This document shows positions 699 through 33,735 of a DNA stretch of 40,579 bases, piece by piece. The stretch comes from an uncultured Chlorobiaceae bacterium (GTDB lineage: Bacteria; Bacteroidota; Chlorobiia; Chlorobiales; Chlorobiaceae). The notes beneath the pieces were generated by a model. The model ran no database searches. It was not told where the DNA came from and was given only the letters and a program-made list of their open reading frames with translations. A program made the position numbers and the translations under genes. How positions within the stretch are numbered: the first letter of the stretch is position 1; every line of letters begins with the position of its first letter. The stretch covers positions 1 to 40,579 of the forward strand of contig CAISRC010000002.1 in assembly GCA_903887845.1 (NCBI GenBank), written 5' to 3'.

Positions 699-2522
699 AT
701 GATCCATATTAAACATGAAGCCACCTTTTTTGGAGCCAACCCTTTTGCGGTAATGCCGGTTCTGGTTGCAAGTCTTGATCTGGCCAACAATACGTCTGAG
801 GAGACAAAGATACTGGAGGAAGGCTCTCTCCGATTGCATACCATTTTTCCGGAATGGGTTAGTGGAGCGCCAGACCTCCAACGGCAGTCGGTTGCAGAAA
901 TTGTGGCTCAAAAAGCCGTACAATGGGCATTAGGAGCGCTCAACGAAGTCAGAGGTTTATTGTATGATGCAGGTGCCACAGCAACGCCAGAGGGTGCTCG
1001 TCTCTGGCTTGGTTTTCACCATCCTGAGGTTAGCCGCTCTGCCCTGAACCTTGCTCTGAAGATTTTGATACAAGCAGGACAATACAATACATTTGATCAA
1101 CATGGTGTAGACTCAGATTTGGCTTCCCTCTGGCAGCTTTGCCGCAGGCATCACCCGGACTATCAAGCACGTATCCTGATGCAGGCTGCACGTGTTAAAA
1201 ACATTCCGGTTTTGCCGTTTATACCAGATACCAGATATTGGCAGTTTGGTTGGGGTAGTCGCTCCCGTATCTTTTTTGAATCAATGTCTAACGCTGATGG
1301 CCAATTAGGGTATCAGTTTCAGTCTTCAAAAGTATCAGGAAAAGCAGTCTTTGCGGCTCTCGGTTTTTCAACCCCTGAACATCTTCTTGTAAACCATGTC
1401 AGTGAACTTGCCGAAGCAGCCGAAAAGGTTGGCTGGCCATGTGTTGTCAAACCTCTCTTTTGTGGTGGAGGCAAAGGGGTAACCGCCGGTATAAGAAGTA
1501 TATCGGAGCTGGAAGCAGCTTTTGCTCATGCCAGGTGTTACACGAATAACGCAGTAATGGTCGAAAAGTTTATTCCGGGTGACGACCATCGATTGATGGT
1601 TATTGACGGAAAACTGTTCGCAGCCATTCGTCGTGCTCCCTCAACGGTAACAGGGAATGGCACGAGTACCATTCTTCAGCTTCTCGCTGCTCTCAATTGT
1701 TCCCGTTCATTGAACATGATGAAAAGTGGGTATTTACGTCCAGTCGAATCAGATCAAATCCTTGAACAACAGTTGGAGCGACAAGGTGTTGACCTTGATA
1801 CAGTACTTCATCTTGGCAGGACAATCACACTGAGATCCAATGCAAACTTGTCAACGGGCGGCACTTGTACTGATGTTACTGAGCGAGTGCATCCTCATGT
1901 CAAACACATGGCAGAAACCGTTGCCAAAACCATGGGCTTGACTACTGTCGGGATCGACTACATTACCACAGACATTGAAAAGTCATGGCAGGAAGGTGGT
2001 AACTTGATTGAGGCCAATACAACACCGGGTCTGGATGCAATAATTGCAGCCGGTCAAGATCCGGTGATTGTTGGTACTGCTGTTCTTGGAACAATACCAG
2101 CTCGCATTCCTGTCCAGCTTTTAGTTGTGCAGCAATCAGATGTGGATCAAGCGAAAACTTATCTGAAGAGCATGACATCTTCGAAAGGTGTTGGATGGAC
2201 GTGCAACGGTGAAGCAGGTATTGACGACATGCCTTTATGCATTACGCCGACCGGGCCATGGAAGGCTGTTCACGTACTGCTGCGTCATAAAGTTGTTCAT
2301 CAAGCCCGTGTGGTTTGTGTCGCAGAGGATATCGTTTGTCATGGCATGCCGCTTGATAAGGTCAATCATGTTGTTTTATGTGGAGATGAGTTGGAGCTCC
2401 CGTCTGAATGGTTACAGGTACTGATTGACCATAGTGAGGCTGTAGAAAGGTTTTCAAGCTGGCAGGATTTTATAAGCAAAAGTGTAAATCCACTACTGAC
2501 ACAAGGTGGTTGGAAACATTGA
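699..2522 (+). CDS. Cyanophycin-synthetase-like ATP-grasp ligase (CphA2-like)
   Basis: The 607-residue protein follows the domain order of cyanophycin synthetase. Residues 1-165 match the CphA N-terminal domain (GANPFAVMPVLVASLDL near the start). Residues 180-470 are an ATP-grasp domain, with VVKPLFCGGGKGVTAGI (249-265), VEKFIPGDDHRLMVIDGK (288-305), the GNGTSTI loop, TVGIDYITTDI and the metal-binding end NLIEANTTPGL (435-445). Residues 470-590 still resemble the start of the CphA Mur-ligase domain (GVGWTCNG, TPTGPWKAVHVLL), but the TGTNGKTT P-loop is replaced by VVQQSDVDQA and the domain stops early. Normal CphA has about 870 residues. Loss of one ATP site and a short C-terminus are the published hallmarks of cyanobacterial CphA2, which polymerises beta-aspartyl-arginine dipeptide. 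The substrate here is inferred. No cyanophycinase or dipeptidase lies nearby, and the start lacks a clear Shine-Dalgarno. Confidence 0.8.
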   Translation: MIHIKHEATFFGANPFAVMPVLVASLDLANNTSEETKILEEGSLRLHTIFPEWVSGAPDLQRQSVAEIVAQKAVQWALGALNEVRGLLYDAGATATPEGARLWLGFHHPEVSRSALNLALKILIQAGQYNTFDQHGVDSDLASLWQLCRRHHPDYQARILMQAARVKNIPVLPFIPDTRYWQFGWGSRSRIFFESMSNADGQLGYQFQSSKVSGKAVFAALGFSTPEHLLVNHVSELAEAAEKVGWPCVVKPLFCGGGKGVTAGIRSISELEAAFAHARCYTNNAVMVEKFIPGDDHRLMVIDGKLFAAIRRAPSTVTGNGTSTILQLLAALNCSRSLNMMKSGYLRPVESDQILEQQLERQGVDLDTVLHLGRTITLRSNANLSTGGTCTDVTERVHPHVKHMAETVAKTMGLTTVGIDYITTDIEKSWQEGGNLIEANTTPGLDAIIAAGQDPVIVGTAVLGTIPARIPVQLLVVQQSDVDQAKTYLKSMTSSKGVGWTCNGEAGIDDMPLCITPTGPWKAVHVLLRHKVVHQARVVCVAEDIVCHGMPLDKVNHVVLCGDELELPSEWLQVLIDHSEAVERFSSWQDFISKSVNPLLTQGGWKH

Positions 2523-30137: not shown

Positions 30138-32030
30138 AATTAGGGCTTTCTGAACAAACCCTGGTTTTAAAAACACCTCAACGGCAGGGCAAATCTCGTC
30201 TCCATGCTCCAATCCCCTAATCGCAGTAATTTTGGCTTCAAGAGGCTGTGTCGCCCATTTATAGCCATCAAAAGCAGCATAATACCTCTAAACAAGCGTA
30301 AAAAATGAACCCCCAGCAGGTTCTGCAGGTTCATAATCATAACAATGAGCGCGACAACCGTTTCGCTGGTTGACGCGAGCTTGGCCATGATGCGATTCAT
30401 CCCGAATCGTCGCTTGCCTTGGCCAAACTTGCCTTCGACGGCGTTACGGATTCCCTCATCTTTCCGTGTCTGTCGTTTGCGTTCAGCGTTCACTTCAGGA
30501 TCCTTTGGAGGGCGTCCCAAAGGTACTCCACTTATCCGAATCGCATGCCCTTTGCACCACTGGAGGTTAGCCCTGTTTCGATAAATCTTGTCGACATGCA
30601 CTGACTCTGGATAGTACCCTTCACGGACATAGTAGCGTTCTGTCTCGGCAATCAGATCACAGCCTTCATTGTAGGCTGACCATGATATTTTTTCAATACT
30701 ACTCCATCCGTCAACAACGCTTAGAGACAGTTTCATGCCGAATTCAGTTTTGGCACCGGCCTTGCCCCGGACTATTGGACGGACATGTGGTTGACTGATG
30801 CTGACAATTCGATCATCAATGCGGCTTGTCCTGTATTTGTACATCTCAAGTTGCTGACGATATAACTCTTCACAAACAAGGAGTTTGACATACAATTTTT
30901 TATTCAGTACCGTCAACGATACCACTGCGGCGAGTGCGTCGATGCTTCTCAGATTTCTGCCGAGATAACCAAGTTGTTTACGAATAGCATTGCGAATTTT
31001 TTTTGCTGATTTCACGCGAAGCTTGGCGACACTCAAAAATTCCTTCCGAGCAGTTTTACGATACGTGCGTGGCTTTTTCAGCCCTTCAGGAGCATGAACA
31101 TGGAGCTTATCGATGATCTGTTCCGTTTTTTCCCGCGCATCATTGAGCAGGCCAAGATCCGTCGGAAAACGGATATCAGCCGGGGCGCATGTGGCATCAA
31201 GAATCAGTTTCCCTTTGTTTGCTGGATGCGCAATCGGGAGTGAACAAGTTGCTGCTGCTTCATTCACCAGAGGCTCTTCAGGAGTGGGTTCAGCACACCG
31301 TGGCTCAGGCTGTACTGGTTCTTGGGTTTGTTCCTCAGATACTGCTTCAGTGACCACTGGCAGCGGCTCTGGCCCTGCTTCGAGCAGCAGTGTCTCTGGG
31401 GATATCTCTACGCCTTGAGGCTCTTCTGAAGCAGAATTCCCCAAGGCACATGTTTTAGCGCGATCTTCTTTTTTTTGAACCAATTGCTCACGTTTTTCAA
31501 GCAGTTCGCGATACTGTTTGCGAAGATTCTCGCTCACATTTGCAATATCAATCGATGTGATGCGTTTACGAAAATGGGTCATCAACGAAGAATCGAATGG
31601 CGCTTCATTTTGAAACCTTTTAAATCCTATAAAATATTGTAGATAAGGGCTTTCCTGGATCTGAGAAACAGTCTCTTCGTCTGTGATACTTAATGTTTCT
31701 TTGATAATCAACGAGCCTAAAGCAGAACGAACACTCAATGCAGGCGAGCCATTCGATGCAGTAAAATTATTAGCATAAATCTCTTCTGCAGCAAACCATG
31801 GAATGGCATTGGACAACTTTACCCAACGATTATCGGCATTCAGTTTCCCACCAAATGGTAGGTAAAAATCATCAACTAACGTGAGCTGCTTGAACTTGCG
31901 CTTATACATTATTTTTCAGGTGCAAGGGTTTTGGGCTATTTCCTCCATTTTCCTTGCACAAATATACAAAAAATATAGACTTAATCAAATATAAAATATA
32001 GCTTTAGCACTTTTTCAGTAGGCCCTAATT
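30138..32030 (-). mobile_element. IS5-superfamily insertion sequence with AATT target duplication
   Basis: The element spans 30142-32026 (1,885 bp). Its ends are imperfect inverted repeats, AGGGCTTTCTGAACAA at the left and AGGGCCTACTGAAAAA at the right (reverse strand), differing at 3 of 16 positions. The four bases AATT flank both ends (30138-30141 and 32027-32030). It holds one transposase gene in the minus direction with 232 bases of upstream DNA. It has landed next to the IS1634 remnant. Because ends, gene and duplication are intact, the insertion looks recent. Confidence 0.88.
30167..31909 (-). CDS. IS5-superfamily DDE transposase
   Basis: 580 residues. The N-terminal region (DDFYLPFGGKLNADNRWVKL, PALSVRSALGSLIIKETL, QESPYLQYFIGF) is the DUF772-type domain of IS5/IS1182-like transposases. 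The catalytic domain shows LILDATCAPADIRFPTDLGL (first Asp), VHVDKIYRNRANL (second Asp) and GKFGQGKRRFGMNRIMAKL (Glu and Y/R region). Between them, at about 150-230, is an unusual Glu/Pro/Val-rich low-complexity insert. The frame is complete and no stop or shift is seen, so it may be active. Confidence 0.92.
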   Translation of the reverse strand: MYKRKFKQLTLVDDFYLPFGGKLNADNRWVKLSNAIPWFAAEEIYANNFTASNGSPALSVRSALGSLIIKETLSITDEETVSQIQESPYLQYFIGFKRFQNEAPFDSSLMTHFRKRITSIDIANVSENLRKQYRELLEKREQLVQKKEDRAKTCALGNSASEEPQGVEISPETLLLEAGPEPLPVVTEAVSEEQTQEPVQPEPRCAEPTPEEPLVNEAAATCSLPIAHPANKGKLILDATCAPADIRFPTDLGLLNDAREKTEQIIDKLHVHAPEGLKKPRTYRKTARKEFLSVAKLRVKSAKKIRNAIRKQLGYLGRNLRSIDALAAVVSLTVLNKKLYVKLLVCEELYRQQLEMYKYRTSRIDDRIVSISQPHVRPIVRGKAGAKTEFGMKLSLSVVDGWSSIEKISWSAYNEGCDLIAETERYYVREGYYPESVHVDKIYRNRANLQWCKGHAIRISGVPLGRPPKDPEVNAERKRQTRKDEGIRNAVEGKFGQGKRRFGMNRIMAKLASTSETVVALIVMIMNLQNLLGVHFLRLFRGIMLLLMAINGRHSLLKPKLLRLGDWSMETRFALPLRCF

Positions 32031-33039: not shown

Positions 33040-33735
33040 ATGACTCAAGAAGTTGACAAACAAGGTAGCAGCCAACCGCTCATATTTGCGCGAATGGCTT
33101 CAGTTATGGCGGGTTGTCCCGTCGTCAGTAAAGATCAAAAAAACAAAGACCAGGGTTTTATGTTTCGTGGCATTGATGATCTGTATAGCGCATTGCATAA
33201 ACTTCTGTCACTACACGGCATCTTTACCACAAGCCACATCATCTCAAACAATCGCTACGAGGGGAAGACGAAAACCGGCACTGCTTTTATTGATGCAGAG
33301 ATCACCATTGCATGGAGGTTTTACACGGTCGATGGGAGCTATGTTGATACCGAAACTGTAGGTGTCGGGCGTGATTATGCTGATAAATATGCAAGTAAAG
33401 CATTGGCTATAGCACACAAGTATGCCCTTGTGCAGGTCTTTGCTATTCCAACCCATGAGAGTGATAACGACCCTGATGCAAACAGTATAGAGGGTGCTGC
33501 AACAAAGGTAATGCAGCAACAGCCTCAAGCCATAACGCAACAACATGGTGCGCCTGCTCCTGCCATGACGATTCACCAGAGCAATGAAGTTAGTGAACTG
33601 GCAACATATAGAGCAATCCCCGCCAAATACTCGTACACGGTGCAGAAAGTGCATCTGGACAAGTTGACCCAAGCAAGGGCTGATGAGCTTATTGCCTGGC
33701 TTAAATCCCTCCCAATGAAAGAACAAGCAGCATAA
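33040..33735 (+). CDS. ERF-family single-strand annealing protein
   Basis: 231 residues. The first 150 match the ERF superfamily: FARMASVMAGCPVVSKDQ, FMFRGIDDLYSALHKLLSLH, YVDTETVGVGRDYADKYASK and ALAIAHKYALVQVFAIPT, the last being the most conserved block. The tail is Gln/Ala-rich and ends in a short helical part. ERF proteins anneal complementary strands in phage recombination and end repair. A RusA-like resolvase follows two genes later, giving a recombination module. Confidence 0.9.
   Translation: MTQEVDKQGSSQPLIFARMASVMAGCPVVSKDQKNKDQGFMFRGIDDLYSALHKLLSLHGIFTTSHIISNNRYEGKTKTGTAFIDAEITIAWRFYTVDGSYVDTETVGVGRDYADKYASKALAIAHKYALVQVFAIPTHESDNDPDANSIEGAATKVMQQQPQAITQQHGAPAPAMTIHQSNEVSELATYRAIPAKYSYTVQKVHLDKLTQARADELIAWLKSLPMKEQAA

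Follow-up and report, generated by a model that had tools for sequence, protein, structure and literature searches.

A Chlorobium-specific clade of single-ATP-site ligases related to cyanophycin synthetase and apparently distinct from CphA2

Cyanophycin synthetase builds its polymer with two ATP sites that work in alternation. In the CphA1 enzyme TeCphA1, Glu215 touches an Arg side chain of the polymer, and Arg458 binds the α-carboxylate of the incoming Asp (PMC9427784). CphA2 is defined by the lack of both the P-loop and the lid module (M-lid) of the M (Mur-ligase) domain (PMC9427784); the primer-cutting motif of the N domain, Cx19HxxEH, is also missing from CphA2 (PMC9262961). CphA homologs are known in coral-associated Prosthecochloris, where they occur in 2-5 copies and have been read as nutrient storage (PMC10158934). 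A related ATP-grasp domain is found in N-acetylglutaminylglutamine (NAGGN) synthetase (ngg, TIGR03103), likewise a single ATP-grasp ligase, but one with another N-terminal part, no Mur remnant and a fixed operon.

The DNA analysed here, hereafter the window, is 40,579 nucleotides long and is the whole of contig C2 of an uncultured Chlorobiaceae genome (2.65 Mb, 144 contigs, 98.8% complete). The FMO protein is found in full in this genome (743.6 bits) and in none of 14 control genomes. The host is therefore a green sulfur bacterium, which agrees with the Chlorobi-like origin proposed when the window was read from its letters alone (the sequence-only reading). Its genus we take to be Chlorobium, from gene content.

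At 699-2522 (+) lies an intact reading frame with an ATG start and no internal stops. It encodes a CphA-family ligase of 607 aa, P0001, with a single ATP-grasp site. The best curated models for this protein are those of cyanophycin synthetases, NF010623 (residues 3-556, E 2.2e-84, 284.2 bits) and TIGR02068 (245.7 bits); both miss their curated cut-offs (877 and 850, respectively), as is expected for NF010623 since most of the M half is gone. Among solved structures, those closest in sequence are 7ta5 and 8fxh, which we take to be cyanobacterial CphA2 enzymes, followed by CphA1 structures. HHalign comparison of six P0001 orthologs with eight CphA1-type proteins gives a probability of 100 and an E value of 7e-58 over 537 columns, covering the N domain, the G domain and about one third of the M domain. 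An AlphaFold model built from the single sequence of P0001 has a pLDDT of 36.

P0001 shares with CphA1 (PDB 7wac, 7txv, 7lgn) homologous N and G domains, the start of the M domain and the core ATP/Mg residues, but it lacks the M-domain P-loop, the lid and Cx19HxxEH, and the equivalents of His267, Glu215 and Arg458 are replaced. The N domain, delimited by profile alignment, spans aa 1-154 (699-1160, +); Cx19HxxEH (motif from PMC9262961) was found neither there nor in any Chlorobium homolog examined. The G (ATP-grasp) domain follows at aa 155-456 (1161-2066, +). When its residues are mapped by alignment onto those of TeCphA1 (PMC9427784), all eight ATP/Mg residues are retained: K211, K251, R298, R312, N383, D420, E438 and N440 correspond, in order, to Lys220, Lys261, Arg309, Arg323, Asn394, Asp431, Glu450 and Asn452. 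Close orthologs of P0001 keep them all as well. The truncated M domain (2067-2519, +) comprises the first part of the core only. In its P-loop column, P0001 has VVQQ-SDVDQA (VVQQSDVDQA, aa 476-485; 2124-2153, +) where CphA1 has VTGTN-GKTT, and the DHxG motif of the CphA1 M domain is missing. The sequence-only reading had described CphA N and ATP-grasp domains with their ATP and metal motifs, joined to a shortened Mur half with a replaced P-loop; this description stands on realignment, in which no intact P-loop came to light.

We interpret P0001 as an active single-ATP-site peptide or amide ligase, from a Chlorobium clade apart from CphA2, whose product is most likely not recycled cyanophycin; we would give this reading, drawn from sequence comparisons, a probability of roughly 0.6. 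By homology, the G domain would phosphorylate a carboxylate, and the acyl-phosphate would be held by R298 and the Mg-binding residues D420, E438 and N440. Attack by an amine would then yield an amide bond, as in CphA1, CphA2, GshF and NAGGN synthetase. The Mur half, responsible in CphA1 for adding the Arg side chain, is presumably dead in P0001 and might serve at most as a scaffold. The product would most likely be a short peptide, a pseudo-peptide or a non-cyanophycin oligomer. What argues against recycling of β-Asp-Arg (see below) is that cyanophycinase is missing, that pocket residues have changed and that the gene is not associated with a full-length CphA1. An alternative already raised in the sequence-only reading, in which the enzyme makes some other peptide, is the better supported one.

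The competing explanation that survives best, though we consider it unlikely, is that P0001 is functionally a CphA2, which would join β-Asp-Arg, either taken up or released from the polymer of a CphA1-like enzyme, into cyanophycin. The two share the N-G-truncated M architecture with an intact ATP-grasp domain and no M-domain P-loop, and they are of similar length (607 aa for P0001, 629-642 aa for CphA2). Identity between P0001 and the CphA2s compared is 29-36%, and 35-36% to 7ta5 and 8fxh in the G domain. In the best trees built on the ATP-grasp domain, the P0001 clade, monophyletic at 100/100 and with a stem measuring about 1.0-1.2 changes per site, stands next to CphA2. This sister relation is weak: 75/77, 86/91 without long branches and 75/87 with more CphA2s. 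Against it stands a 100/100 clade of five CphA2s (7ta5, 8fxh and three proteins of family f48) that excludes P0001, and this is the strongest evidence that sequence comparison offers against P0001 being a CphA2. Values of p-AU from comparisons of two trees each, indicative only because several groupings were tried, reject one clade of the P0001 group and CphA1 (0.03) as well as a single clade of all truncated forms (0.0115), do not reject joining of the P0001 clade with the other truncated Chlorobium paralogs (about 0.2), and make a tree uniting it with NAGGN synthetases as likely as the placement beside CphA2 (0.41 to 0.52). On these trees, P0001 is assigned to its own Chlorobium-specific clade, separate from CphA2. 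Thus the label "CphA2-like" of the sequence-only reading is apt for the architecture but does not extend to membership of the family, and the CphA1/CphA2 tree that it had called for sets P0001 weakly beside CphA2, outside the CphA2 clade, with CphA1 rejected as its home.

The substrate pocket points the same way, with one exception. A CphA2 signature drawn from five sequences in this analysis consists of Glu/Asp at position 215, Lys at 267 and Phe/Tyr at 458 (TeCphA1 numbering), whereas P0001 has Q206, G257 and D446. Q206 (1314-1316, +) is Gln in most of the P0001 clade, whereas of the enzymes examined every CphA2 and most CphA1s have Glu or Asp there. G257 (1467-1469, +) takes the place of the catalytic His267; this position is Gly, Cys, Lys or Ala in the P0001 clade and Lys in all CphA2s examined. 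The Lys found here in three P0001-clade members, as in CphA2, counts against a non-CphA2 reading. D446 (2034-2036, +), at the position of Arg458, is Asp in seven of the nine clade members and Phe or Tyr in CphA2. At positions 215 and 458, therefore, P0001 differs from 5/5 CphA2s. With D446, an acidic residue stands at the site of carboxylate binding in CphA1, which suggests that the acceptor is a different one, possibly positively charged. His297, beside Arg298 in GDDHR, was considered as the counterpart of the catalytic His267 and rejected, since the alignment puts position 267 at Gly257.

A CphA2 function would also call for a supply of dipeptide. The absence of CphA1 noted in the sequence-only reading is true of the window but not of the genome, where C20 encodes an 880-aa CphA1-like protein (628 bits on TIGR02068, cut-off 850) with intact GTNGKS P-loop and DDHIG motifs. 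This gene favours the CphA2 explanation for the host. However, among six carriers searched with P0001, a full-length CphA1-like gene was seen in G000 and G009 only, and in G032 the search with P0001 revealed no other member of the CphA family. The reported lack of cyanophycinase and dipeptidase extends from the window to the whole host genome, a search of which detected no recognisable cyanophycinase (TIGR02069), IaaA or IadA. Nor was cyanophycinase detected in any of 15 genomes of the host's genus, all eight carriers included, although the phylum-level control G058 was positive. Carriers of P0001 differ in this, and in not being cyanobacterial, from the setting of CphA2. Absence of cyanophycinase is not proof, because 956 of 1614 CphA1-encoding genomes, mostly of β-Proteobacteria, are also without a recognisable one (PMC10206079).

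CphA2-type proteins do occur in the phylum. A scan identified them, at 644-678 aa, in three genomes of family f48, each beside a cyanophycinase (L092:1931-7188, -; L115:3775-6745, +; L116:5796-10823, +). All three adjoining cyanophycinases score above the curated cut-off (167-199 bits), and in the G domain the identity of the L092 protein to 7ta5 and 8fxh reaches 47-49%. This suggests, from sequence, that CphA2-type enzymes also exist outside cyanobacteria. At L092 and L116, the CphA2-type gene is followed by a further CphA-derived protein of 702-707 aa; that of L092 has an N domain with HxxEH and a degenerate G domain. The f48 loci look like a split cyanophycin system.

It is improbable that P0001 is nearer to NAGGN synthetase and produces a small dipeptide as an osmolyte through a single ligation. 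The single ATP-grasp site is common to both, and the tree uniting them is among those not rejected above. However, P0001 scores 153.7 bits on TIGR03103, missing the curated cut-off of 569 and falling well below its scores on the CphA models. Its N domain and Mur remnant align end to end with CphA, and it has no amidotransferase or M42 peptidase neighbours, unlike the ngg loci L071 and L091. The latter (L091:1753-6397), in another genus of the same family, is an apparent NAGGN osmolyte operon with amidotransferase-like, ngg-like and M42-like peptidase genes. A CphA-type ATP-grasp domain also occurs in a 1004-aa Microvirga ossetica plasmid protein annotated as CapA (L070:3506-6520).

The P0001 clade numbers nine members in eight genomes, all within the host's genus. 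Orthologs are present in G009 (68% identity to P0001), G021, G034, G035, G257, G352 and, on a long branch, G032 (32-35% identity); G034 carries a tandem pair, one copy of which is cut by a contig edge. The clade is sharply bounded: among the 394 genomes of the phylum that were scanned, the last member scores 778 bits and the next protein 248 bits. A protein search of genome contigs with P0001 retrieved distant ATP-grasp matches in Thalassobacillus only, and scans of viral contigs gave no usable relatives. PADLOC returned no match and so lends no support to a defence role. Pairwise dN/dS between P0001 and its orthologs is about 0.2, and the family is under purifying selection. Very little credence can be given to the notion that P0001 is a relic of a CphA1, a pseudo-enzyme in decay or without catalytic activity, for which its patchy presence, the decayed neighbour gene in the host and the dead M domain might speak, since the reading frame is intact, all ATP/Mg residues persist in P0001 and its close orthologs, dN/dS between species is low and the tandem duplicate in G034 has been kept open.

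Other CphA-like proteins of Chlorobium have also lost the Mur half, often in the same genome; the host has two, C29 and C46 (658-659 aa). The 16 examined differ from P0001 in grouping with the Chlorobium full-length CphA1-like enzyme (96-100% support), and the Mur half has therefore most likely been lost at least twice, judging from these sequences. Several of them sit in gene clusters, and their loss looks independent of that of P0001. A wider and more tentative reading, to which we would give somewhat less than even odds, is that green sulfur bacteria repeatedly made cyanophycin synthetases into single-site ligases for a non-cyanophycin product, the Mur half having gone independently at least twice, and that the product of the P0001 clade is an undescribed peptide or amide. 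In this reading of repeated conversion, the second loss, held just as tentatively, may have led to the paralogs whose gene clusters also contain methyltransferases, radical SAM enzymes and a GNAT-BKACE fusion.

The host paralog C29 adjoins a methyltransferase near apparent Mg-chelatase (bchI/bchD-like) genes (L039:1244-8560). A cluster conserved in three Chlorobium genomes (L045:6118-15659, L047:1-5315, L090:8506-14004) combines a truncated CphA-like ligase with glycosyltransferase-like, phosphorylase-superfamily and SDR-like proteins and, in at least two of them, a radical SAM/SPASM-type protein; it is possibly an undescribed biosynthetic pathway. At four further loci (L038:10539-15720, L051:3445-8676, L053:4080-11434, L056:792-11516), a GNAT-BKACE fusion protein is encoded near a truncated CphA-like ligase, with nifA-like genes and an apparent homocitrate synthase gene (nifV-like) close by, and some of these loci also include a methyltransferase and a small cupin-like protein.

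As far as our literature search reached, it is new that the P0001 clade is defined, that it is set apart from CphA2 and that its Mur half appears to have been lost independently. That a lineage outside cyanobacteria has given up one of the two sites, and lacks enzymes for feeding or degrading cyanophycin, suggests reuse of the fold as a general peptide ligase. The finding also counsels caution in reading every green sulfur CphA homolog as nitrogen storage, as in the Prosthecochloris proposal (PMC10158934). The host carries four CphA-family members side by side, making the question testable within one organism.

The location of the P0001-family gene differs between species. Upstream of the host gene lies an att-like sequence of 22 bp (587-608, +) that matches the 3' end of the tmRNA gene exactly; a strong intrinsic-terminator-like stem of 13 pairs (607-636, +) follows directly. 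The sole other copy of the 22-bp sequence in the host genome belongs to the ssrA tmRNA gene itself, on contig C80 (L113:3086-3107, -). This arrangement fits an island inserted at ssrA, which would have parted ssrA from its downstream flank. On C80, the tmRNA is followed by genes resembling a mobile element. In G021, G035, G257 and G352, trpB and tRNA-Gly(GCC) lie upstream of the ortholog; the G009 ortholog directly follows tRNA-Gly(GCC). On the other side of the gene, G009, G021 and G035 have tRNA-Ser(CGA). The corresponding tRNA-Gly site of the host (contig C3) is without the gene. Duplicated tRNA-Gly ends flanking the gene were sought in the relatives and not found.

No partner gene conserved across the P0001 carriers was found. 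An LCM-type methyltransferase is encoded near the ortholog in G035, G257 and G352; it is not essential, because the other five carriers, the host included, are without it. In G352 this methyltransferase is interrupted by two stops, and in G011, where the P0001-family ligase is absent, it is split (L097, L099-L101). Just downstream of P0001 (2781-3444 of the window) are the remains of a decayed type I restriction HsdR, with N-terminal and helicase pieces in different frames. Farther along, a DDE transposase (30167-31909) and an ERF-family recombination protein (33040-33735) suggest that the right part of the window is a mobile or prophage-like stretch.
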